This document shows positions 17,445 to 60,430 of a DNA stretch of 64,000 nucleotides, one piece after another. Each line of letters begins with the position of its first letter. Position 1 is the stretch's first letter. The position numbers and the translations under genes are program-made. The notes under the pieces were generated by a model. That model was not told where the DNA came from. It was given only the letters and a program-made list of their open reading frames with translations, and ran no database searches. The stretch is from Sedimentisphaerales bacterium (GTDB lineage Bacteria; Planctomycetota; Phycisphaerae; Sedimentisphaerales; SM23-30). The stretch is from positions 1-64,000 of the forward strand of contig JANQJS010000042.1 in assembly GCA_028281535.1 (NCBI GenBank), given 5' to 3'.

Positions 17445-17479
17445 GAAAAAGTCATACCGATTTTACATAGGTATGACTT
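17445..17479 (-). terminator. Rho-independent terminator of the redox operon
   Basis: On the minus strand a perfect 10-bp stem (AAGTCATACC / GGTATGACTT) with an 11-nt loop is followed by T residues. It lies 25 nt after the globin stop and marks the 3' end of the 17.5-22.5 kb operon. Confidence 0.85.
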
Positions 17480-17503: not shown

Positions 17504-17914
17504 TTAATAGGATGCAGCAATCATGGTATCTGACATGACCTTATAAATGGCAGCCCAAGCGTCCCTACAATCATCTGTAAAGATTTCTGGCCCTAATCCT
17601 TGCTCCAAAGTCCAAAGTAATGCTCTACCGACAGTATCGTAATGCTCTGGCAACACTTTGTAATCGACATGTTTTTTCCCCAGACTCTCTAAGGCTGGAA
17701 CCAGCTTTTCTAAATCCCCCAATCCTCGAACGGCAAGGGTAATCATATCCATTAATTTTTTACCTTGCTCTTCCATATTGCTCGTGAAGAGAGGTTTTAG
17801 ATCAGGATCCATTTCAAATAGTTTTCCATAAAAAAGCTCAGCAGCCTGAGGTGCAATGGGAACAACTTTTTCCCAAGAATCCTGTACGAGTTTTACTTGT
17901 GATTCTGTGACCAT
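17504..17914 (-). CDS. Single-domain globin, paralogue 2 (redox operon)
   Basis: 136 residues with a clear hemoglobin/flavohemoglobin-type globin domain. LVQDSWEKVVPIAPQAAELFYGKLF (helices A-B) leads to DPDLKPLF, and SLGKKHVDYKV gives the likely proximal His in helix F. The HYDTVGRALLWTLEQGLG segment is typical of flavohemoglobin-like globins. No reductase domain is attached. It is the last gene of the redox operon, 111 nt after the cytochrome c lipoprotein and just before a strong terminator. Having no signal peptide, it stays in the cytoplasm while the cytochromes are exported. NO or O2 binding is the expected chemistry. Confidence 0.93.
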   Translation of the reverse strand: MVTESQVKLVQDSWEKVVPIAPQAAELFYGKLFEMDPDLKPLFTSNMEEQGKKLMDMITLAVRGLGDLEKLVPALESLGKKHVDYKVLPEHYDTVGRALLWTLEQGLGPEIFTDDCRDAWAAIYKVMSDTMIAASY

Positions 17915-18025
17915 ACTTAAAAATCAAACCTTTCTACATCAATTTAAATAGATAGTAGGTATTCTATCTATGATTTGTTTATATTCTAAATTTACTCTTG
18001 CTTGCTCGATTTTATAAAAATTAAC

Positions 18026-18454
18026 TTATTCTACAGTTTTAACCATATATAAAACAGCTGCTTTGACCTCATCATCAGTAAGGTCCATATGGCCACCTTT
18101 CGCAGGCATTTCAGTTCCTCCCGGACCTTCGTAACCTTCAATGGCACGCTTTACCAGAACATCAATTCCTTGCGGTAGACGCTTTTGCCAATGTTTTGCT
18201 TTACCAACAATGGGAGCATCTTCACGCCCTGTCTCATGGCAAAGTGAACATTTTTCAACCACAACGGTACGGCCTACCTTCAAGATAGAATCTTGATAAT
18301 GGGGAAACTGTTCAACAGGCTCCACACTGGCCGCCGGTTGAGCAGTTTCAGGCCCACTATCTTTCCCGCCACATCCGGCCATATGTAAAGCTAGAGTCAT
18401 GATTCCAAAAACAGAGTAATAACGTATGCTTGCCTTATATGATATTTTCATCAT
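18026..18454 (-). CDS. Mono-heme cytochrome c lipoprotein
   Basis: 142 residues. The N-terminus ends in a lipobox (HMAGC), followed by an Ala/Pro/Glu linker. One c-type heme site CSLCH is in KCSLCHETGREDAPIVG, and the likely axial Met is in EMPAKGGHMDLTDDEV, a pattern of class I cytochrome c5-like proteins. Probably membrane-tethered in the periplasm as a one-electron carrier. It lies 31 nt downstream of the Tll0287-like gene in the same operon. Confidence 0.9.
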   Translation of the reverse strand: MMKISYKASIRYYSVFGIMTLALHMAGCGGKDSGPETAQPAASVEPVEQFPHYQDSILKVGRTVVVEKCSLCHETGREDAPIVGKAKHWQKRLPQGIDVLVKRAIEGYEGPGGTEMPAKGGHMDLTDDEVKAAVLYMVKTVE

Positions 18455-18485
18455 ATTTATTTCACTATCGTTTTTATAAGTTATG

Positions 18486-19091
18486 CTATGATCCTAATGG
18501 TATTCGAACGACAACGCCCCCCATCGTATCACCTAATTTAAAATCAGTCCGTGGTGTGTCTTTATGCTCATTGTGACAAGTGACACAAGCAGGAGATACT
18601 GCCACATCGGCATATATGGCTGTGAAATATTTTTTACCAGCAATGGTTTCTTCCCCATAGAAAGGTTCTTTCCCACCATTGGCGACAATAAAATCAAATC
18701 CCTTCTTTTCAACATCCGTTTTAGGCATATTTTGTTTATTGACAGGCCATGGTGATTTTAATTGATAACTAAAGGTCTCTGTTTTTTCTGACACACGCTC
18801 AGAAGCCATTCGGAACATTTGAGCAGGAAGTGGCAAACTTCCTTTGTCATCTTCATCTTTCCATTGCTCTGAGGCTTTAACTAGCCCTGCATCTTTACTA
18901 CGCTTAACGACATTACGTGTATAAATGGTTCGATCCGCTTCCATTACTGCAAACAATGCATCTGCCATAATTTTTGGATCAATACCCGCTTTCGGTGCTG
19001 GGCCCGACGAAGCTTGCTTACCGCATCCTCCCATACCTGTAAATAATAATGCTGCGCACAAACTTGTTAATAGGGTTTTTCTGATAGTCAT
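18486..19091 (-). CDS. Tll0287-like (DUF3365) heme c protein, exported lipoprotein
   Basis: 201 residues. The signal segment ends in a lipobox-like GMGGC. The domain from about 40 to 195 matches the Tll0287/DUF3365 type: a PAS-like fold with helices at the start (ADALFAVMEADRTIYTRNVV) and a single c-type heme motif CVTCHNEH near the end, then GDTMGGVVVRIPL. Proteins of this type are sensors or redox components. AAAGGA before the ATG supports the start. It lies 48 nt after the multiheme cytochrome gene and 31 nt before the cytochrome c gene. Confidence 0.85.
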   Translation of the reverse strand: MTIRKTLLTSLCAALLFTGMGGCGKQASSGPAPKAGIDPKIMADALFAVMEADRTIYTRNVVKRSKDAGLVKASEQWKDEDDKGSLPLPAQMFRMASERVSEKTETFSYQLKSPWPVNKQNMPKTDVEKKGFDFIVANGGKEPFYGEETIAGKKYFTAIYADVAVSPACVTCHNEHKDTPRTDFKLGDTMGGVVVRIPLGS

Positions 19092-19139
19092 TAGTTCGTT
19101 GTCCTTTCTGAATTTTGTTATAAAAACCTCATATTCATT

Positions 19140-20480
19140 TCAATTCGACTCTCTCGCTTCCACCCGGTCTTTGACCCACTGCATCGACTCAAGATGCACA
19201 CTGGGAGGACGATCATAATTATTCTCTACTAACGTACTATCTACTAAAGCATCTAAGGTAAATTCAAGACCATGGCATTTCATACAAACGGGTCTGGCCA
19301 TTTTTTCATTGGGTCTTAAATAATCATTCTGATTGTGCATGACTCGGACTTCTGGATTTCTCTTACTGCCCACATTAACTCGCGGCAAGTGACAACTTGC
19401 ACAAGACACTCCTTGTCCGGCAGGAATGTCTCCAGCGATTTCTTTTTCCCAAAGTTTGTAGTGAGTGGTTTGGGTGAAATTATTTGAATGGGCATCATCA
19501 TGGCAACTCATACAAGCATCGGTCGCAGCATATTGCACATCATATCGATGTGCCGTATGACATGAATTACAAGATAACTCTTTATGCATCGATTCGGCTT
19601 TCATGGGAAGACGAGCCATTTGAGGGGTCATGGGTGAAAGGTTTTGAGCCAAACGCATGCCGTGTCTTCCACCCAGAAAACCCTCGACTTCCGCATTATG
19701 ACAGCTGCGGCAGCTGTTATAGTCTGGAGAATTAGTCCATTGCTTTACACTGCTAGCCTCCATCGGCTGCATATGACAATCATTACAACTAACACCCTTT
19801 TGTTGATGCACAGAGAGCATCCAATTTTCATGTTCTTGTCCTTTGAGCTGATTTTCTACGGCAACATTCTGCTGTGATTGCGATTGCATCTCACCGTAAG
19901 ATCTCAGCAATGTTTTTAGTGGTAGCTCCGCCTTAACAGCATGTTTAGGCTGATCCAGATTCTTAGCAAGAAAATCTTCATAGAGTGCACGATTATCGTG
20001 AAAATTATGGCAATCCAAACACGTATCAAATCCAAGCCCTTCGTGAGTCGGACGTTCTTTACCAATATCTTCATGACAATAAAAACAATAATCTGTTGGC
20101 ACCGTAACACCCATCGCATGTGTTTGTTTAGGCACATGCTCTTTATGGCACGTTAAGCATTGATGGGCATCCATATGTTCAAGTAAATGAGCATTACCTG
20201 GATTGGTAAACTTTTTAGCGGGATGGCTATCGTTAACCAAATCCAATTCTGCTTTATGGCATTCCAGGCAAGCGTCTTGCTTGACGCCCATAAAGGGTGT
20301 ATGGCAAGCATCGCATTTCAGTTCAATCTGGTAGTGACCTACCGTTGTCTGCCCAGGTAAAAACATTGTCTTGTCGGCTCCTTGCCATGCATTCATTGCT
20401 AATAAATAAGTCGCGACCAAGCTCAAAAGCAACCAGATCAACCAGAGCTTCCAGCCTTGCATCTTTTTAATAAATTCCAT
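19140..20480 (-). CDS. Eleven-heme membrane-anchored cytochrome c
   Basis: 446 residues. One N-terminal signal-anchor helix (LWLIWLLLSLVATYLLAM) holds the protein in the cytoplasmic membrane with the rest in the periplasm. I count eleven CXXCH motifs, from CDACH at 56-60 to CMKCH at 399-403. In order they are CDACH, CLECH, CLTCH, CFYCH, CLDCH, CNDCH, CRSCH, CNSCH, CMSCH, CASCH and CMKCH. Extra His residues between them can serve as distal ligands. The spacing is like cytochrome c3/NapC-related multiheme proteins, but the count of eleven fits no common enzyme I know. It starts 29 nt after the flavoprotein gene and is the natural electron acceptor for it (inference). Confidence 0.9.
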   Translation of the reverse strand: MEFIKKMQGWKLWLIWLLLSLVATYLLAMNAWQGADKTMFLPGQTTVGHYQIELKCDACHTPFMGVKQDACLECHKAELDLVNDSHPAKKFTNPGNAHLLEHMDAHQCLTCHKEHVPKQTHAMGVTVPTDYCFYCHEDIGKERPTHEGLGFDTCLDCHNFHDNRALYEDFLAKNLDQPKHAVKAELPLKTLLRSYGEMQSQSQQNVAVENQLKGQEHENWMLSVHQQKGVSCNDCHMQPMEASSVKQWTNSPDYNSCRSCHNAEVEGFLGGRHGMRLAQNLSPMTPQMARLPMKAESMHKELSCNSCHTAHRYDVQYAATDACMSCHDDAHSNNFTQTTHYKLWEKEIAGDIPAGQGVSCASCHLPRVNVGSKRNPEVRVMHNQNDYLRPNEKMARPVCMKCHGLEFTLDALVDSTLVENNYDRPPSVHLESMQWVKDRVEARESN

Positions 20481-20509
20481 ACACCCTTAGACTCTACTTC
20501 TTTTCCTTA

Positions 20510-22504
20510 TTACCAATAATAAACCGAGAAAATATGGAAGCCAATCAGTACTGGTAGTGGCCAAAAACAGGCTATATGTAAACCAGTCGCCATGGATCGA
20601 TATTTTCTTGCCACCTCTCCTACACGCGATGACGTTTTATTTTCTAAACCTGATGCGATTCCTGCAAAAGCGCCTAGTAAATTAAGCAATGCAAAAGCGA
20701 TCATCAGAATAAAATTTAAATTTGCACCAAAGTTAAATCCGGTATGCACAAACAGAGCGATTAAAGTAGTCATGCCAATAAATCCATGTAAAAATCTCCA
20801 GCTGGCAAACTCGCCAAAACTAAACCATTTTACACGTTTACGTAGCGACATGATCATGGCAACAGCTGAAAGCCCCAACAAAGAAAATCCTGATACCTGC
20901 TTTAGAAAACTACTTCGCCATAATGCATCAATGGTATACCACATTTTTTGAACGGATAATGAAAATTTCATTTCAGGTGTAAACACCGTAGCAACTAACG
21001 CTAGTAAAGAAATTAAACTTACGCCTACCAATAGACTTGCTGCAATGGGTGGCTTCACCGTCATTGTCACTCCGGTCATCTGTACCAACAGCGGCTTACA
21101 GGATCCACAAATCGTTGCAGCACCTGTTCGATCCATCAGCTTTTCTACCGTTTTGCATCCTTGCTCCATTGCTTCACAGAGCGTCCCTTTAGAGATATTC
21201 ATGCAATTGCAAACTGCCGCTTCATTGGGCCAAGACTGCACCATTCCGCCAGGTTTGTCTTCACAGAGAAATCCTTCCCGTAGGAAACGTTCGAAATGTT
21301 TTTCTTTAAATTTTCTATTGGATTGAATGGCATTTTGAATCAGTGGCACTTCAGGATTGGGCCCTAGAAACATCGCACCAATAAGCCGATTTTCACGAGC
21401 TACTAATTTACGATAGTTGCCTTCTGTTTCAAAAATATACGTTTCCCCTGATTGTAAGCTATCGCCTAATGACGTCACTTCAATCCCCATAACTTTCAAT
21501 CTTGTGGAACGATCCCCCTTTGTAAATGTCGCTTTTTTACCAACCAATCGTTTTGCCAAAATATCAGCCATTTGATACCCAGGAGCTACCAAGCCATAAT
21601 TTTCACCATTATGATTTACACATTCTCCTATAGCATATATATCCTCTGTTGAGGCCTGGAGTGTATCATCAACATGAATCCAGCCCATAGGATCACATTT
21701 TAATCCGGTCTCCCTTGCTAACTCATTGGAAGATTTAATTCCCACGGAAACGACAATCATATCAACTAGCAATGATTCACGATCTTCATCATCAAAAACC
21801 AATTGATGAGTGCCATGTCGGGACGAATGAATATGCGAGGTTGTGGATTTTGTATGAATTTGTATCCCCATGCTTCGAATAGTATCTTCGAGTAATTCAC
21901 CCGCTCGTGGATCTAATTGCTGGGGCATGAGATAATGTGCAATTTCTACGACATGTACTTCTTTACCTAAATCATGGAGAACTTTTGCCGCCTCTAAGCC
22001 CAATAAACCACCACCAATAACAGCAGCAGATTCACATTTCTGGCTATATTCTAATATTTGTTCAATGTCTGATATTGTTCGGTAAACGAATTGTCCTTCA
22101 CGATGAGCATGATTAAATACAGGCGGAATGAAAGGAACAGATCCAGTGGCAAGGACTAAATGATCGTAGGATTCGATATGTCCCGCTTGACTAACTATTT
22201 GTTTCGAATCGGGATCAATTTTTAATACGGGATCATTCAAATGCAAAGAAATGTTTTGCTGCTCATACCAATTCTCTTCAGCCAGATACAATTGTCGAGC
22301 ACTACGGTGATTTACAAAATCTGTCAGATTAACGCGATCGTATGCCGGCTGGGTTTCCTTACCAAAGACGGTGATGTCAAATCGTTCTTTTCGATCAATT
22401 TCTTTCAGTTGTCGGCAAAAATGATATCCCACCATACCATTGCCTACGACAACTATCTTCTCTTTACTTTTTTCTTTCTGCTTGGAAATTAATTTCGCAA
22501 TCAT
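20510..22504 (-). CDS. NirB-like NAD(P)H/FAD oxidoreductase with BFD [2Fe-2S] cluster fused to a two-heme-b membrane domain
   Basis: 664 residues. Residues ~16-420 match the NirB-type pyridine nucleotide-disulfide oxidoreductase: IVVVGNGMVGYHF (FAD), AAVIGGGLLGLEAAK (NAD(P)H) and IYAIGECV. A BFD-like [2Fe-2S] domain follows with Cys at 432, 434, 466 and 469. The siroheme half of NirB is absent. In its place are about five hydrophobic helices (~505-664) with four His placed as two H-x13-H pairs (H573/H587 and H643/H657). That is the spacing of bis-His b-heme ligands in ferric-reductase/NOX-like domains. The order implies NAD(P)H to FAD to [2Fe-2S] to heme b across the membrane. First gene of the operon. 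Confidence 0.85.
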   Translation of the reverse strand: MIAKLISKQKEKSKEKIVVVGNGMVGYHFCRQLKEIDRKERFDITVFGKETQPAYDRVNLTDFVNHRSARQLYLAEENWYEQQNISLHLNDPVLKIDPDSKQIVSQAGHIESYDHLVLATGSVPFIPPVFNHAHREGQFVYRTISDIEQILEYSQKCESAAVIGGGLLGLEAAKVLHDLGKEVHVVEIAHYLMPQQLDPRAGELLEDTIRSMGIQIHTKSTTSHIHSSRHGTHQLVFDDEDRESLLVDMIVVSVGIKSSNELARETGLKCDPMGWIHVDDTLQASTEDIYAIGECVNHNGENYGLVAPGYQMADILAKRLVGKKATFTKGDRSTRLKVMGIEVTSLGDSLQSGETYIFETEGNYRKLVARENRLIGAMFLGPNPEVPLIQNAIQSNRKFKEKHFERFLREGFLCEDKPGGMVQSWPNEAAVCNCMNISKGTLCEAMEQGCKTVEKLMDRTGAATICGSCKPLLVQMTGVTMTVKPPIAASLLVGVSLISLLALVATVFTPEMKFSLSVQKMWYTIDALWRSSFLKQVSGFSLLGLSAVAMIMSLRKRVKWFSFGEFASWRFLHGFIGMTTLIALFVHTGFNFGANLNFILMIAFALLNLLGAFAGIASGLENKTSSRVGEVARKYRSMATGLHIACFWPLPVLIGFHIFSVYYW

Positions 22505-22770
22505 CTATCTAAATGTTCCAGCAATGTTCAAAGCTATAGTCCATGTCTGTAAATGACACATTGCAACAACCATGCCGAAACAGATTCGCCCCTTTGATGA
22601 CTTGGAAACATCCCCCCAAAGAAAAGTAAACTTAACCCCTTTATTTTTTAATAAATTAACAACGGTAATCACGTGAAAGAAATTTAATTAATTTTAGAAT
22701 GAATTCAACAAATTTCTAATTCTGTTGATAGCAAACAGATTGAAGACCCAATTACAAAAGCAACTGAAAT
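22505..22770. other. Upstream region of the redox operon
   Basis: The region 5' of the flavoprotein gene has no gene. I looked for an FNR-type TTGAT-N4-ATCAA site and found none. A weak -10-like TATAGC lies ~35 nt before the ATG. No firm promoter call is possible. Confidence 0.35.
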
Positions 22771-22794
22771 GTAGGCGCAGCGACATGCGCCTAC
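22771..22794. repeat. Perfect GC-rich stem-loop, possible REP-like element
   Basis: GTAGGCGCA and TGCGCCTAC form a 9-bp perfect stem with the loop GCGACA. The 8-mer AATGTAGG occurs beside it on the left and is repeated directly on the right at about 22798-22806. It is far more GC-rich than its surroundings. It lies 48 nt after the patatin stop codon and has no T-tract on the minus strand, so it is not a standard terminator. Confidence 0.6.
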
Positions 22795-48078: not shown

Positions 48079-49539
48079 CTATTTGGTAGGCACTTTCATA
48101 GATTTTAAAAACTTTATTACTGCCAATTGATCCTCTTCGGACAGTGTAAAATATTCATCACGACTCTCACGGGCATCGCCGCCATGGTAATGAATGGCTT
48201 CTGTTAGTGTCGTCAAATCGCCACGATGGCCATAGGGATCTGAACTTCCGGCATCCCATAATTTACGAGTTAAAAACTGTTCTGTTGGACGAGGTTGATC
48301 TGCAATGGTAAAATCATCAGGATCTGCAAAACCAGATAACATCCCTTGCGGCAACTGTTCATTTGCAAAATGATTTAAATCATCATCATTCAAATCCCAA
48401 CGTTTCAAATCAGTAAATGCATTTACAATCCCGGCACCTTTATTCTGACCTTTTTCCACTCTCTCCAAGAATCCTCTACGTACCAAATTCACCTTAACGA
48501 CTTCATCCACATCATCTGGATGCAAATTACCAGAAGGATTATAAGGATTTGGCTCGCTAAATACAGGATTATTTAATAGCAACTCAGGCTTATGACATGT
48601 GGCACAGCCCACTTGATTAAAAAGATCGCGTCCTCGACGAATCTCTTTACGCTTAGCAGGTCTTTTTGGCCACTGAATTGCAGGAGTAGGCAATGTTGCC
48701 TGATAAAGCGATAACGCTGTAACATCACCCGTAGTTAATTCATTGACCATACCATCTTGATCTGCATCTACATCCAAACCAAAACGTTCGGTGGTTTGCA
48801 TGCCATGATGATGATTCATGGCGTTATTCGTAAATTCACGAAGCGATACTACCGCTCCTTTTTGATGGAAAGGTTTGATAATTAAATCCCAATCCACACC
48901 TTCAATATTACTCGGGTCTATTTTACCATCAGGCAATACCGTGATAGAACCAAAACTAACATCTTTAGTGACTAAATCTTTTGTCACAGATTCACCAGAT
49001 TCTTCTGCTTCTGCACGAGCCGCTTCGCGTATAGCGATCAAGTCATCTGACATTTCACGCGCCAACATTTCAATGGCGCCTGCACCATGCATACCGAGCG
49101 TGTTACGTTCATTACTGAATTCAGGTGAAACAGAAAATGTCACAGGATCCAATGCTTGGGCTAACACAAACACATTGGCTACGATATCACCGGCACCACC
49201 AGATGATGGAATATTGTGACAACCAGCACAAGAATTGGATTCCGGCGCGGATGTACGTATAAATTCAGGCTGATCCGCAATTCTTGGAGCTCCCGTCCCT
49301 GTAGAAGCTGGCCGCCCTTGCCCATCTGCTTTATTGAATCGAGCATCAAACAATAAATTACCTTGCTTAATTATTTCTTTAAGACTGTACTGGCCATCTT
49401 CAATATCTTGTTGGTCCATATGAAATTCGACAACTGGGGGATCAATAATTACAGGAGGATCAATTGCCAAAACAGAAGAGACTGCCCCTAAAGAAAGTAA
49501 ACATACCATTAATTGTCTGACCAAAGAATAAAGGTTCAT
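48079..49539 (-). CDS. Exported di-heme cytochrome c oxidoreductase (DHOR/peroxidase-like)
   Basis: 486 residues. A signal peptide (residues 1-25, ...LSLGAVSSVLA) is followed by two c-type heme motifs, CAGCHN (SNSCAGCHNIPSSGG) and CATCHKPEL. HGAGAIEMLAREM and YGHRGDLTTLTEAIHYHGGDA resemble the di-heme oxidoreductase family. The family is often annotated as thiol oxidoreductase or putative peroxidase. True activity is unknown. AAGGAG 7 nt before the ATG fixes the start. It lies directly downstream of the radical-copper oxidase on the same strand, but a terminator and 319 nt separate them. Confidence 0.87.
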   Translation of the reverse strand: MNLYSLVRQLMVCLLSLGAVSSVLAIDPPVIIDPPVVEFHMDQQDIEDGQYSLKEIIKQGNLLFDARFNKADGQGRPASTGTGAPRIADQPEFIRTSAPESNSCAGCHNIPSSGGAGDIVANVFVLAQALDPVTFSVSPEFSNERNTLGMHGAGAIEMLAREMSDDLIAIREAARAEAEESGESVTKDLVTKDVSFGSITVLPDGKIDPSNIEGVDWDLIIKPFHQKGAVVSLREFTNNAMNHHHGMQTTERFGLDVDADQDGMVNELTTGDVTALSLYQATLPTPAIQWPKRPAKRKEIRRGRDLFNQVGCATCHKPELLLNNPVFSEPNPYNPSGNLHPDDVDEVVKVNLVRRGFLERVEKGQNKGAGIVNAFTDLKRWDLNDDDLNHFANEQLPQGMLSGFADPDDFTIADQPRPTEQFLTRKLWDAGSSDPYGHRGDLTTLTEAIHYHGGDARESRDEYFTLSEEDQLAVIKFLKSMKVPTK

Positions 49540-54964: not shown

Positions 54965-57900
54965 TTATGGACAAATTGCCAACCAATACTGAGAAAACAA
55001 CTCTAAATCCCCTAAATTAACAGCTTGATCTGAATTTAAGTCTGTTTGAAGGCTACCACTATTTTCTAGCCATTCAGATGAAATAATCGCAAAATCACGT
55101 ATGTCCACCCGCCCAATTCCATCCAGATTAGCACTCTGACAAGCTGACAATGCTGACATGATTGTGACGTTAAGTGTATTCGTATGATCAAAACTTGTTG
55201 CACTTTGGTACAGACCTTCGATTTTTGTTTTTTCTGACACAGCTCCAACAGCAAACACTTCAAATACCTGCTGGCAAGTCTCTGTGGGATTCATGTCAGG
55301 ACAAGTCACAGGGTGCATCTGATGGCTATACAGAGGCGTATTAATGGGAGATTCGGGCAAAGTTCCAGAAAAAACATTGGGCGTGGAGGTAATCCCTCTA
55401 ATCATAATGTTACCATTAATATTTGGCAAAGAATCACATAAGATTGGAAAAACCAAACATGTAAGATGAAGCTCATAAAGATTAAACCATCCGCCTAAAC
55501 CAGGAAGATATCCCCAAGTTCTTTGATAATTTGTACTATTGGTATCGAAACCAACTTGATTTTTGTCTGAACCAATTTGTCTCCAGCCGATGTAAACATC
55601 CCCGCTATTGATGATGATGTTTTGCTCCGCTAGTTCAATGTCAAACCAATTGATATTTTCCGCAGTTGATGGTGCTACAGGATCAACGACCATCGGTGTC
55701 ATTAAATCACTTCCTGGTGAACCAGAAATTCCTGAATCATCCCAAACATGCAATTCAAATGGGTAAGTTGTTTCATCCCAGATGAAAAAGCGTGCGATAT
55801 CCAGTTTAGCAGGATAACTTTCAGGTGTGACTCGCACAGCAATAAAACCTGTTGAAGAACCAATGTCTCCAAAATCTTCTGCACCGCCATCATCATAAAT
55901 GAGTTCAACAGGATCGTTTAATAGCAAGCTTGCTTGTACATCATCGCATTCACCCGACTGACATTCCACTTGCGTTGTAACCATAAAGCTTTCACCTTTG
56001 GGCACATTTATATTACTGACTGGGCTTACAAGTGTTGAGGTTAATGTTCCCCATGGTACAAGCCAGGTAAGATCTTGCGTTGCCTGATTGCTATCCACAT
56101 CTGTCGCAGTTACTGTTAATTGCCAATCGCCTGAATCCTGAATTATCAGGTTTGCTGGATAGGTAAACGTTGAACCACCCACATGGCTCGCACTAGCATT
56201 AATCCAGGTTTGGTTATCTGGAATATTCTCTAATTTGATATTGATGCCTGGTACTTGCTGTGGGTCTGTTGCATCAACACGTATCTGTTGAATGGTATCG
56301 CCAAAACCTGCCGCTTGGCAATCCACCCAATTACTATTAATCATACAATCAATGTTGTTGATGACTGGCTTGTTTGGATCAATGACCTGTATGACGATGG
56401 TATCAGATTTATCATCAACCATGGTTGTGCCGCTCGCTGTCAAACGAATCGAATATGTGCCATCTGATGATGGATTGACCTTCCATTGAGCTGTGCCAGA
56501 ATTAAATTGTGATTTTAAAAATATTTCTAATTCGGGAGGATTTGCTCCGTTAGAACCATCTATTGTAAAGAGTTGATTTTCAAATTGCTCATTAATCAAA
56601 AAGGCGATGTAGTCTTCACCGCTTTCGACCGCATCTTCGAGAGCGGCACGGACATTATTTTGCTTTTTACCTGCAGTATTTGCTGAAAAGGTCTTGATAG
56701 GATTAATTAAATTCGAATATGAAGCGGGGTCTGCATCGTAAATCGTTAAGGCGCCTGTCAGTGATTCATAGTTGCTATCAACTAATTGCACCTCTGCAAC
56801 AGCTTCCGGGTCGGTATTGGTGACCGTTAAATTCAACAGTGCGGAATCAATTTCAGCATCCGGGGTTAAACTAGAAATATCAAATTTTAAATAATAACGA
56901 CTGACCTCATCATTATTCGGATCAATCTGGTAATCCACTATCACTTCAATATCATTAAATGTCAGCCAATCAAACACGCCAACATCGTGCGACAGGAGCT
57001 TAATATAGCTTGTGCCTCCCGGGTTTAAATCGGAAAGAACTGCAGGGTTTTGCGAGGTCCACCAGCAATCTGGCGGTTCAGGTAACCCACCTCCGCCCTC
57101 ACCTGGAATACAATCGCCTATGAGATTGTTTTCTGAACCAATCTGATCAGACGTATAAATGAACCAACCAGAAGATGGAGCTGTTGATTGGATGACCAGA
57201 TAATGTTCCATACGAATACTTATCTGGGAAACAACACCTGGGGGCAATTCAAATGAATAAATTGAAAACACATCCTGCTCGATAGCACCAATGGCATCTT
57301 GTGGCTCGAGATCCCCGGTATTAAATTGTAATGCGACAGGTGACCCTACTTCAACAGATGCAGGCGAATCCAGCTTCGTAAAACTATTGCTAGAAATATC
57401 TCGAATCGCTTTGGTATCGTATGCTGGAATCAATAGTTGATCCATCGGAAGATTTGGATCATTGGGATTAATCGGTACTGCTTGTTGCGTGTTGTCTTTC
57501 TGGGAAATGGTCAGTGTCGGTGCATTTGTATTTCCCGAAGCATTTACTTGAAACTGTTGATCATTGTTTCTTTCTCTAATCTGGAATGTTATTTTATCCT
57601 GATTAGTTTGGAGAGCATCTTCTACGGCGGCTTTCAAGTTCAGACTGACTTGGCCGTTTGATTGACAGCTAAAACTTTTTACGGGATTTAACAAATTAGT
57701 ATAATTGGGATCACCCGGTTCATGAAGAGTTTGGGGCGAATCACTGGATTGCATAGCATTATCAATGAGAAAAAGATCGGCTTCACAACCAGGTGAAGAT
57801 TGTGTTAGTTCTAGATTTAACCTGGCCGAAGTGACTTCAAATTCTGAATTAATACTGGAGAGATCCATTTGCATGGTATAGGCAAACTGATCATCATTAG

Positions 57901-60430
57901 CCGGATTGATTTGATAATCCACAATCACTTCAATATCATTAAATGTCAGCCAGTCAAACTCTCCTACATTGCTCGAGATTAGTTTAATATAATTTGTTCC
58001 ACCTGGATTGAAATCAGCCAGAACGACAGGCGAAGTAGTAGTAAACCAACAATCGGGTGGTTCGGGCAATCCTCCTCCCCCTTCATCTGGAATGCAGCTG
58101 TCGACTAAATTTAATTCATCTGCATTACTATTTGAGGTAAAAATATTCCACAATGATGGCGGTGCTGTTGATTGAATCACCAGATAATGTTCCATTCGAA
58201 TGCTTATCTGCTGAATCACACCAGGAGGCAAATCAAACTGATATAAAGCAAACACATTTTCTTCAATTGCTCCCAGCGCATCGCCCGGTTCCAAATCACC
58301 TGTATTGAATTGCGTCGTCGCAGTTGAACCGACAAAAGAAACTGTTGGACTTAATGTTTTCGAATAAGTCGTTGTAGCTAATTCAAGTGATGTTTGGGCA
58401 TCGAAGAGAATTGGCGCATCTGTATCAACAGTCACGCCGCTGAGATTTCCTAGAGTGGTTGGATTATCGTCTTGGGTTGATAATAAATGTACCGGACCAA
58501 GACTGGTATAATTATCACAATCAATTCCCTGACATGCCTCAGCGAGAACAGAGACCTGGCCACAGCCATCACCGCCAAAACAATTTACTTGAGCGGTCAA
58601 ATCAAATGGTTGGCCGACAAACTGATCAACTGAGACATTTGGCTCAGTAACCGACACACTTAATTCAGACACTTCTGCGGGTAAATTATCGATCGTTCTT
58701 TCTAAATTTATTTTACCCCAACCATACACGCCATCCCATCCTGGCGGTCCCAGATCATCGGCATTTTCTTCTAGAACCTGCTTTACCTGGGCAGGCGATA
58801 ATGTTGGATTTTCACTGAGAATGAGAGCTGCGGCACCTGCAACATGGGGGCAGGCCATGGAGGTACCTACCGCTCGAATATAGCGATTACCATCAACGAT
58901 AAATTGATCATCGAAGCATTGGTTAATGAGAAAGTAAAGACAAAGAAATGGATCATTCGCAACAAGTGTGCTAAAGGTTGAAACAATTTCAGGATAATTG
59001 GTGCCACCAACGGAATCGCCCCCAGGAGCGACCAAATCTAATTCTGCCCCACCATCTGAATAGGAGGCAATAAAATCTGCTTTGTCTAATGCACCTACGG
59101 CAATAACTTTGGATGCACATGCCGGGGAGACTAAATCGTTAGGCGTCCCATCATTTCCTGCGGCACAGACAACCACAACACCAGCATCCACTGCAGCGTT
59201 GACCGCTTGTGCCATGGGTTCTGAATCACAGGTGCCAGTGAACTGACCTTCCCCGAGACTCATATTGATCACATCAGCACCATTGTCGACGCACCAATTG
59301 ATGCCTAAAATCACATCAGAAGCGAAACCATTTCCGGTGGCATCCAGTACTTTGGCTGCCATCAGTTCGGCGTCAAAGGCAACGCCGCGATAATTAATGC
59401 CTTCAGATGCCACGATACCAGCAACATGCGTCCCATGAGAATTGTCATCAAATTGGACGGTATCTCCCGTTGCGGCATCAAATTGAGCCACGACTTTGTT
59501 TTGCAAATCAGGATGATCGACATCAATGCCCGTATCAATAACACAGACTCGAACGCCATTACCAGTGATGCCATTACTCCAAGAATAATCTGCGTTAATC
59601 TGATAGACGGAATCTTCCAATAACAGACTGACTTCTTTGTCTTCCTGGATATCTTTTAAATTTGGCAATTCGTTCAATGCCTGTAATTTTTCTTCGGGAA
59701 TTTCCACGACCATGCAATTTTGTAATTTTCCATAATTATGAACGATTCGGCCGCCATGTTTTTTGATAATATTTAAATAGTCCTGGTTGCGACGATTGAT
59801 AATATTTCTGGCTAACTTTTTCGACAATTTTGGCGATTCATCAAAAGCCACAATCATTCTTTTTTTTCCCTTTGGCACTCGGGTGGTTTTCTGTTTAAAG
59901 CGGCTTTTCGCTTTTTTCTTTGGTTGCGTCTGTGTAGATATTCCTAGAAGTCGATCTGAGATTATTTTCTCATCAGGATACCCTCTAAAAATCACTTTCC
60001 CTTTTTTATTAATCAATATCGCTGTAGGAATCCGTTTAATCTTATATTTACTGGCAACAAATCCGTCATAATCCAGTAAAATATCGCAATCCAAATTATT
60101 CTGATTAGCAAAATCGTTTATTGTTTTTTCATCTTCGCGAATGGCGATAAAAATGAGTTGTAATTTATCATAGGCAAATTGAGATCGCAGCTGATCAAAA
60201 AGAATAAAATTGTCATTACAAGCTGGACACCAGGTTGCACCGAAAAAAAGTAATGTAGGCATGGTTGGTTTTTTCTGAATGGTTATGGGATGACCATTCA
60301 AATCAGGCAGCGTAAAGGTATAAGAATTGGCTCTAGAATCTTTTGCCTCTAAAGTCAGAACTGGTACGCACAAGTATAATAGGCATGCAATCAGGGATTT
60401 TACAACTATCTGGTTTTTGCAGTCAAACAT
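54965..60430 (-). CDS. Secreted thioredoxin-like/subtilisin fusion with duplicated domains and dockerin-like end
   Basis: 1821 residues. A signal peptide (1-29) precedes a TlpA/thioredoxin-like domain (~35-165) with CPAC (Cys68, Cys71) in GATWCPACNDNF and cis-Pro region KRIPTAIL. A propeptide-like stretch follows (~185-275). The S8 subtilase has Asp299 (VIDTGID), His332 (SHGTHVAG) and Ser524 (GTSMACPH), an intact triad. Two ~300-residue tandem domains (~698-1010 and ~1027-1335) share FNTGDLEP, RMEHYLVIQSTAP and DWLTFNDIEVIVDYQI. The end (~1745-1820) has two dockerin-like EF-hand units (NLDGIGRVDIRDFAIISSEW, LNSDQAVNLGDLELFSQYW). A GAGG ribosome-binding site precedes the ATG. Confidence 0.9.
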   Translation of the reverse strand: MFDCKNQIVVKSLIACLLYLCVPVLTLEAKDSRANSYTFTLPDLNGHPITIQKKPTMPTLLFFGATWCPACNDNFILFDQLRSQFAYDKLQLIFIAIREDEKTINDFANQNNLDCDILLDYDGFVASKYKIKRIPTAILINKKGKVIFRGYPDEKIISDRLLGISTQTQPKKKAKSRFKQKTTRVPKGKKRMIVAFDESPKLSKKLARNIINRRNQDYLNIIKKHGGRIVHNYGKLQNCMVVEIPEEKLQALNELPNLKDIQEDKEVSLLLEDSVYQINADYSWSNGITGNGVRVCVIDTGIDVDHPDLQNKVVAQFDAATGDTVQFDDNSHGTHVAGIVASEGINYRGVAFDAELMAAKVLDATGNGFASDVILGINWCVDNGADVINMSLGEGQFTGTCDSEPMAQAVNAAVDAGVVVVCAAGNDGTPNDLVSPACASKVIAVGALDKADFIASYSDGGAELDLVAPGGDSVGGTNYPEIVSTFSTLVANDPFLCLYFLINQCFDDQFIVDGNRYIRAVGTSMACPHVAGAAALILSENPTLSPAQVKQVLEENADDLGPPGWDGVYGWGKINLERTIDNLPAEVSELSVSVTEPNVSVDQFVGQPFDLTAQVNCFGGDGCGQVSVLAEACQGIDCDNYTSLGPVHLLSTQDDNPTTLGNLSGVTVDTDAPILFDAQTSLELATTTYSKTLSPTVSFVGSTATTQFNTGDLEPGDALGAIEENVFALYQFDLPPGVIQQISIRMEHYLVIQSTAPPSLWNIFTSNSNADELNLVDSCIPDEGGGGLPEPPDCWFTTTSPVVLADFNPGGTNYIKLISSNVGEFDWLTFNDIEVIVDYQINPANDDQFAYTMQMDLSSINSEFEVTSARLNLELTQSSPGCEADLFLIDNAMQSSDSPQTLHEPGDPNYTNLLNPVKSFSCQSNGQVSLNLKAAVEDALQTNQDKITFQIRERNNDQQFQVNASGNTNAPTLTISQKDNTQQAVPINPNDPNLPMDQLLIPAYDTKAIRDISSNSFTKLDSPASVEVGSPVALQFNTGDLEPQDAIGAIEQDVFSIYSFELPPGVVSQISIRMEHYLVIQSTAPSSGWFIYTSDQIGSENNLIGDCIPGEGGGGLPEPPDCWWTSQNPAVLSDLNPGGTSYIKLLSHDVGVFDWLTFNDIEVIVDYQIDPNNDEVSRYYLKFDISSLTPDAEIDSALLNLTVTNTDPEAVAEVQLVDSNYESLTGALTIYDADPASYSNLINPIKTFSANTAGKKQNNVRAALEDAVESGEDYIAFLINEQFENQLFTIDGSNGANPPELEIFLKSQFNSGTAQWKVNPSSDGTYSIRLTASGTTMVDDKSDTIVIQVIDPNKPVINNIDCMINSNWVDCQAAGFGDTIQQIRVDATDPQQVPGINIKLENIPDNQTWINASASHVGGSTFTYPANLIIQDSGDWQLTVTATDVDSNQATQDLTWLVPWGTLTSTLVSPVSNINVPKGESFMVTTQVECQSGECDDVQASLLLNDPVELIYDDGGAEDFGDIGSSTGFIAVRVTPESYPAKLDIARFFIWDETTYPFELHVWDDSGISGSPGSDLMTPMVVDPVAPSTAENINWFDIELAEQNIIINSGDVYIGWRQIGSDKNQVGFDTNSTNYQRTWGYLPGLGGWFNLYELHLTCLVFPILCDSLPNINGNIMIRGITSTPNVFSGTLPESPINTPLYSHQMHPVTCPDMNPTETCQQVFEVFAVGAVSEKTKIEGLYQSATSFDHTNTLNVTIMSALSACQSANLDGIGRVDIRDFAIISSEWLENSGSLQTDLNSDQAVNLGDLELFSQYWLAICP
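56930..57335. repeat. DNA copy 2 of the duplicated domain in the subtilase gene
   Basis: This block is a direct repeat, at nucleotide level, of 57910-58318. A shared stretch reads CATTAAATGTCAGCCA in both copies. It encodes the second FNTGDLEP...NDIEVIVDYQI domain. Confidence 0.75.
57910..58318. repeat. DNA copy 1 of the duplicated domain in the subtilase gene
   Basis: Direct-repeat partner of 56930-57335, offset by about 980 nt (327 codons). The offset is larger than the block, so a linker region separates the copies. Nucleotide identity is visibly high in the block, which suggests a recent or homogenised duplication. Confidence 0.75.

Follow-up and report, generated by a model that had tools for sequence, protein, structure and literature searches.

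The five-gene operon

The stretch analysed here, hereafter the window, comprises 64,000 nucleotides (nt; positions 1 to 64,000) of contig JANQJS010000042.1 from a Sedimentisphaerales bacterium of the phylum Planctomycetota (assembly GCA_028281535.1; 4.4 Mb in 67 contigs). It carries a compact operon encoding a NirB-like flavoprotein fused to a predicted di-heme b membrane domain (FlavB), an 11-heme cytochrome c, a Tll0287-like heme protein, a mono-heme cytochrome c lipoprotein and a single-domain globin (Table 1). In an earlier note, made from the sequence without database searches, these genes were described and read as a complete electron conduit from NAD(P)H to the periplasm. The five open reading frames, their coordinates and spacing and the 10-bp terminator stem were all recovered as described there, and the products assigned to the genes agree with Pfam and NCBIfam matches.

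Table 1. Features of the operon, with positions numbered from the first nucleotide of the window.
Feature	Position	Strand	Basis or remark
Five-gene operon	17504-22504	minus	intergenic gaps of 29, 48, 31 and 111 nt
FlavB, 664 amino acids	20510..22504	minus	NirB-like FAD/NADH domain (residues ~13-411), BFD [2Fe-2S] domain and predicted five-helix transmembrane di-heme b domain
BFD-like [2Fe-2S] domain of FlavB, residues 431-473	21086..21214	minus	Pfam PF04324, 1.1e-8
C-terminal five-helix membrane domain of FlavB	20510..21046	minus	predicted helices and conserved His
Codons of the FlavB His ligands	H573 20786-20788; H587 20744-20746; H643 20576-20578; H657 20534-20536	minus	
11-heme cytochrome c, 446 amino acids, N-terminal membrane anchor	19140..20480	minus	11 CXnCH motifs
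Heme 5 motif of the 11-heme cytochrome	20007..20021	minus	CX2CH in the window
Tll0287-like (sCache_heme) periplasmic lipoprotein, one c heme, 201 amino acids	18486..19091	minus	PF11845, 1.4e-19
Mono-heme cytochrome c lipoprotein, 142 amino acids	18026..18454	minus	PF13442 (CBB3 type), 5.7e-9
Single-domain globin (Hmp/Vgb/Cgb-type haem domain), 136 amino acids, cytosolic	17504..17914	minus	PF00042, 6.1e-17
Intrinsic terminator	17449..17479	minus	10-bp perfect stem, 11-nt loop, T run; read directly from the sequence
Likely operon promoter region	22505..22770	minus	preceded by the upstream patatin gene and its terminator-like hairpin (22771-22794)

The stem arms of the terminator are AAGTCATACC / GGTATGACTT, followed by the T run; it was identified by eye, and its loop exceeds the loop limit of the hairpin scan. 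Upstream of the operon, DNR/NnrR-type and sigma-70 sites were sought and none scored above chance, nor was a convincing promoter or nitric oxide (NO) regulator box found there. A terminator-like hairpin (GTAGGCGCA/TGCGCCTAC) at 22771-22794, behind the patatin gene, may separate that gene from the operon or may alternatively be a repeat element.

The flavoprotein FlavB

In Pfam, FlavB matches Pyr_redox_2 (5.8e-54), Rubredoxin_C (1e-10) and Fer2_BFD (1.1e-8), and its residues 17-477 match the NirB model TIGR02374 (3.4e-133; 445.8 bits, where the cut-off for full-length proteins is 578). It thus shares with NirB the domains for flavin adenine dinucleotide (FAD) and reduced nicotinamide adenine dinucleotide (NADH), Rubredoxin_C and the BFD [2Fe-2S] domain, and over its residues 11-478 it is 41% identical to the genome's own NirB. 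Whereas that NirB has a siroheme half, FlavB shows no PF01077 or PF03460 match in Pfam and has a predicted five-helix di-heme b membrane domain in its place. Judged by its domains, with no siroheme half in FlavB, the gene set (hereafter the module) is not NirB.

The two H-x13-H pairs of the membrane domain are H573/H587 and H643/H657. Full-length FlavB homologues are encoded at 77 of the related loci described below (L087 excluded), and in 75 flavoprotein sequences H573, H587 and H643 are invariant, as are the BFD cysteines 432, 434, 466 and 469, and H657 is more than 90% conserved; in 34 C-terminal domains all four histidines are invariant. An AlphaFold2 model (mean pLDDT, the predicted local distance difference test score, 90.5) predicts helices at 487-508, 532-556, 566-588, 596-621 and 627-663, with H573 and H587 on the third and H643 and H657 on the last helical stretch. 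The earlier proposal that the four histidines line up on helices as bis-His ligands is borne out in that they sit pairwise on two predicted membrane helices. Lys and Arg abound in loops 553-568 and 620-636; by the positive-inside tendency this would put these loops, the flavodomain, the BFD domain and H573/H643 on the side of the cytosol, with H587/H657 towards the periplasm.

Conserved His pairs on two helices and predicted b hemes liken this domain to the di-heme b proteins of the ferric reductase/NOX type (PF01794), but that model is matched by only one of 34 membrane-domain members (E = 0.003) and not by the window member. A broader group of DUF4405, MsrQ, PepSY and ferric-reductase cytochromes has been described (PMC11334425), with which FlavB shares four helix-borne histidines, predicted b hemes and a cytosol-to-periplasm path; it differs from them in its five predicted helices, its fusion to a NirB-like flavodomain and its weak family matches. 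For instance, DUF4405 (PF14358), a six-helix fold, weakly matches 14 of the 34 members (best 3e-4). No solved structure matched the membrane domain by sequence, and Foldseek with full FlavB gave matches dominated by ferredoxin-reductase-type flavodomains, which were uninformative on the membrane domain. Stand-alone di-heme b membrane domains of 173-177 amino acids, without a flavodomain, are encoded at two loci (L109:9436-9969 and L087:9475-9996).

The periplasmic cytochromes and the globin

The 11-heme protein, which matches cytochrome c3/c7 domains in Pfam, has 11 CXXCH motifs in the window. All 11 CXnCH motifs are present in 86 multiheme sequences; that of heme 5 is CX4CH in 85 of them and CX2CH, by a two-residue loss, only in the window protein. 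Exactly 11 further histidines are conserved in at least 85 of the 86 (49, 86, 115, 146, 161, 225, 273, 311, 331, 340 and 382). Since 11 motif histidines are accompanied by 11 other conserved ones, the simplest reading is a bis-His wire with no catalytic site, in which all 11 c hemes are probably bis-His ligated.

Heme segments of this protein resemble NrfA and octaheme nitrite reductase by profile (E about 1e-10), and MtrC/DmsE-like local matches are also present. Its AlphaFold2 model (pTM, the predicted TM-score, 0.83; no close solved relative) finds its best PDB fold match in HAO, a weak one (E 2e-3, TM about 0.3), and NrfA follows at E 0.29 or worse; the overall fold of NrfA and octaheme nitrite reductase is not matched. 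The likeness to these enzymes lies in local heme-binding segments and the weak fold match to HAO, whereas the window protein differs in its 11 hemes, in having histidines enough for all to be bis-His ligated and in its N-terminal membrane anchor. A catalytic heme without a distal His, the hallmark of NrfA and octaheme nitrite reductase, is not evident from His conservation in the 11-heme protein; with no open heme apparent in its sequence, the module is not NrfA.

The match of the Tll0287-like protein to PF11845 lies above the cut-off, and its CXXCH is present in all 85 sequences, besides conserved Arg, Tyr and Met residues. Like the Tll0287/DUF3365 sCache_heme proteins (PMC12889525), it is a periplasmic stand-alone domain with one CXXCH heme; it differs in lying in an operon with flavo-b and 11-heme genes, a context absent from that paper, which nowhere uses the word 'operon'. 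Tll0287 itself has Cys/His ligation, whereas no conserved Cys axial ligand was found in the window-type proteins, 13 of 85 having any Cys beyond residue 45 outside CXXCH. No solved structure matched the protein by sequence. Hemes of the Tll0287 family bind NO or have redox roles (PMC12889525). Two further sCache_heme matches in the window's genome (L151 and L153, on contigs C21 and C6, in frames of 577 and 647 amino acids) are probably signalling proteins. In the cytochrome c lipoprotein, CXXCH and M116 are invariant among homologues.

The globin matches the Hmp haem domain (2.2e-22) and has conserved Y29, Q50, H82 and Y92. By comparison with Vgb, we take Y29, Q50 and H82 to be Tyr B10, Gln E7 and His F8 of an Hmp-type pocket, residues that liken it to the NO-detoxifying globins Vgb, Cgb and Bjgb. 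No signal peptide was found in it; the globin is therefore placed in the cytosol, outside the periplasmic branch.

Conservation and distribution

When 84,980 species genomes were searched with an alignment of the multiheme proteins, 387 loci proved to encode a relative of the 11-heme protein. The best 80 of the 387 lie in Planctomycetota, Verrucomicrobiota, Lentisphaerota, alpha-, beta- and gammaproteobacteria, Poribacteria, Myxococcales, Acidobacteria (Bryobacterales), Binatia and Dadabacteria. No relatives were found in viral contigs, and plasmids gave a single local match of 29%.

Gene content was counted in 85 loci, 48 of which have complete flanks. FlavB, or at least its membrane domain, and the multiheme gene are present in all 85 and a Tll0287-like gene in 84, the exception (L100) being cut by a contig end, so that the trio stands together in 84 of 85 loci. 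A homologue of the cytochrome c lipoprotein occurs in 30. A single-domain globin is encoded in 57 loci and a truncated globin in eight others (65 of 85 in total), in several of the latter followed by its own flavin reductase gene. Almost without exception the genes share one strand and lie near each other, at protein identities of about 31-66%; in a minority (e.g., L047, L048 and L063) they are rearranged and run Tll0287-cytochrome c-globin-flavoprotein-multiheme. To judge from these gene counts, the recurrence of the same genes is far beyond chance; the module is real and widespread. Its core consists of the trio, to which the globin and the cytochrome c lipoprotein are frequent but dispensable additions. 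The earlier expectation that all five genes are conserved together accordingly holds for the trio, with the other two as common companions. Distance matrices of the proteins correlate positively (Spearman 0.2-0.6), a value without correction for species phylogeny that is not used as proof of co-evolution.

Closer to the window, five other genomes in a phylum sample have full-length FlavB. All five carry the flavoprotein, multiheme and Tll0287-like genes in the window's order, three have the globin, and one (L035) has all five genes. FlavB was absent from all other sampled genomes of the same order, which indicates a patchy distribution, perhaps through exchange between lineages.

The nitrate-assimilation context

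Specific nitrate genes, counted as NrtA, NasT, NasA/NarB and NarK, were found in 34 of the 85 loci within the stretch examined. In four loci (L049, L056, L081 and L084) nasT, which encodes an ANTAR antiterminator, stands on one side of the module and nrtABC on the other; in L036 and L037 the module directly follows a NarB/NasA gene and its iron-sulfur (FeS)/DmsC partner, with a nitrate ABC transporter beyond. Two transporter ATPases tested exceed the curated nitrate-transporter cut-off (TIGR01184). Of 55 module genomes, 54 have a NasA-like gene (E at most 1e-40), and the hosts are for the most part nitrate assimilators. Across the phylum sample, about 41 of 392 genomes match NasA strongly (E at most 1e-160; hand count), and all six module genomes are among these (hypergeometric p about 1e-6, without phylogenetic correction). 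NsrR-like Rrf2 regulator genes lie near seven loci, and a porin-like gene of the Alginate_exp type lies beside eight of the 85.

NirB-like siroheme proteins are encoded in 32 of 55 module genomes, and the NirB-less ones tested have NIR_SIR proteins in all but two cases (G571 and G585), in many adjoining NasA. As the hosts already carry NirA or NirB, the idea that the module is their missing nitrite reductase was rejected as the principal explanation.

A related arrangement is known from Bradyrhizobium japonicum, in which the assimilatory nitrate reductase makes NO and a globin and an NAD(P)H flavoprotein of the same operon counter it (narK-bjgb-flp-nasC; PMC4724949). Both systems tie an NAD(P)H flavoprotein and a single-domain globin to assimilatory nitrate reduction, but the Bradyrhizobium redox proteins are cytosolic and include no membrane b hemes, multiheme cytochrome or Tll0287-like protein. 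In Crenothrix polyspora, the flavoprotein (L105:7380-9962) has an N-terminal fusion to an H-NOX (HNOB) domain (PF07700, 6.2e-34) and a V4R-like one, by its domains apparently an NO-binding variant of the module.

Proposed function and alternative explanations

NADH would reduce the FAD of the NirB-like domain, from which electrons would pass to the BFD [2Fe-2S] cluster, on to the cytoplasm-side b heme (H573/H643) and across to the periplasm-side b heme (H587/H657). The inner-membrane-anchored periplasmic 11-heme cytochrome would receive them there and hand them to the Tll0287-like lipoprotein and, where present, the cytochrome c lipoprotein. The module would serve assimilatory nitrate reduction by the reductive handling of NO, or of nitrite leaked to the periplasm, and the co-encoded globin would be the cytosolic arm dealing with NO. 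The gene set, its conservation, the ligands and the nitrate context are read from the sequences, and the helices and topology are predicted; from these we infer electron direction, heme loading, substrate and terminal acceptor, with the Tll0287-like protein as the terminal or the substrate-binding heme. In favour of this reading are the recurrence of the trio, the conserved ligands, the charge topology, and the nitrate genes beside the module and elsewhere in host genomes. An involvement of NO is favoured by the single-domain and truncated globins, the H-NOX fusion in Crenothrix, the NsrR-like genes near seven loci, the Bradyrhizobium operon (PMC4724949) and the known properties of Tll0287-family hemes (PMC12889525).

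The conduit from NADH to the periplasm is in itself very probable, and the nitrogen-oxide role has about an even chance. Taken whole, the reading of the module as an NADH-driven inner-membrane conduit through which reactive nitrogen oxides from nitrate assimilation are disposed of, the globin being its partner in the cytosol, falls slightly short of even. It seems rather unlikely, and is put forward tentatively, that the module is a nitrogen-oxide reductase of a new kind with the Tll0287-like protein as substrate subunit, fed from NADH through the NirB-derived flavo-b protein and the 11-heme wire, and that it shields nitrate assimilators in many phyla against NO or nitrite in the periplasm. 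As for the conduit of the earlier note, its anatomy of NADH, FAD, [2Fe-2S], two b and 11 c hemes stands by ligand conservation, predicted helices and charge topology, and the globin drops out of it as a cytosolic protein. The acceptor had been left open; judged by the context, nitrogen oxides of nitrate assimilation are likelier than metals.

Several observations weigh against a conduit for nitrogen oxides in nitrate assimilation. A specific nitrate gene lies within 10 kb in only 18 of the 48 loci with full flanks, and the window's genome has its NarK-NirB-FeS/DmsC-NasA-like cluster on another contig. NasA-type matches at loose cut-offs include formate dehydrogenases, and a few of the 54 module genomes counted as having a NasA-like gene may hold nothing else of this type. 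No globin appears within the stretch examined in 20 of the 85 loci, some of these stretches being incomplete. The single stand-alone Tll0287-like protein assayed binds NO weakly, though it carries a Cys ligand that is not conserved here (PMC12889525). At L087 and L109 the membrane-domain genes without a flavodomain adjoin 11-heme and Tll0287-like genes; NADH is therefore not the sole possible donor, and the input may differ, e.g., quinol or a separate flavoprotein. That we infer both the electron transfer and the substrate also counts on this side.

Alternatively, the module might be a periplasmic assimilatory nitrite reductase whose multiheme protein uses NADH electrons to turn nitrite into ammonium, in the manner of NrfA or octaheme nitrite reductase. 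The NirB-like input domain, the cytochrome parts like the heme segments of those enzymes, the weak HAO fold likeness and the linkage to nitrate transport and NasA all speak for it. Nevertheless, it is improbable in view of the conserved second His available for all 11 hemes, with no vacant catalytic heme evident, the poor structural matches to NrfA, and the NirB-like reductase of 32 of 55 hosts and NIR_SIR proteins of most NirB-less ones tested. The position directly behind NarB/NasA in L036 and L037, and the finding that Bradyrhizobium Flp probably donates to NasC (PMC4724949), would suit an electron donor or redox-balance partner of NasA that exchanges electrons among NADH, NasA and the respiratory chain. 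NasA is cytosolic whereas the module is mostly periplasmic, nasA has its own FeS/DmsC-type partner gene in the window's genome and in L036/L037, and it is not adjacent in most loci; such a partnership has a small chance.

The module might instead be no enzyme at all, serving as a redox or NO sensor or relay in which the Tll0287-like heme reports NO or the redox state in the periplasm. NO sensors are known within the Tll0287 family (PMC12889525) and the Crenothrix flavoprotein is fused to H-NOX, but the operon has no signalling output domain, a 13-heme wire would be costly for sensing, and stand-alone family members appear to be of redox type (PMC12889525), which makes a sensor quite improbable. 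Very improbable, finally, is a general periplasmic or extracellular conduit to metals, electrodes or other oxidants to which the nitrate genes are incidental. The MtrC/DmsE-like matches and the porin-like genes beside eight loci favour it; against it stand the inner-membrane anchor of the cytochrome, the failure to see an MtrB-type partner, and the strong association with nitrate assimilation genes and globins. Moreover, in contrast to MtrCAB, the five-gene operon has no outer-membrane beta-barrel partner or surface cytochrome, and the module is not an MtrCAB-type conduit.

Other genes in the window

Two further proteins encoded in the window deserve mention. One of 1821 amino acids (54965-60430) combines, according to Pfam, an AhpC/TSA-type redoxin domain and a subtilase in an unusual fusion. 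The other, of 486 amino acids (48079-49539), has a C-terminal match to di-haem oxidoreductase (DHOR) and adjoins a galactose-oxidase-like protein of 1273 amino acids.

Implications for nitrate assimilation

A literature search of open-access papers, with subscription journals mostly outside its coverage, found no account of this gene set, in keeping with the earlier note, which knew of no described system. All the parts are of known kinds; what seems not to have been described is how they are combined and that the combination is tied to nitrate assimilation. Accounts of that pathway usually present it as wholly cytosolic, with NasA followed by NirA or NirB. A conserved wire from NADH to the periplasm, with 13 predicted hemes and tied to nitrate genes in Planctomycetota, Verrucomicrobiota, Lentisphaerota, Pseudomonadota and others, would imply an unrecognised periplasmic step or protection system. 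The module also gives one group of stand-alone Tll0287-like proteins a function that can be tested, and does the same for genes that could otherwise be read as no more than a NirB-like flavoprotein and a generic multiheme cytochrome.

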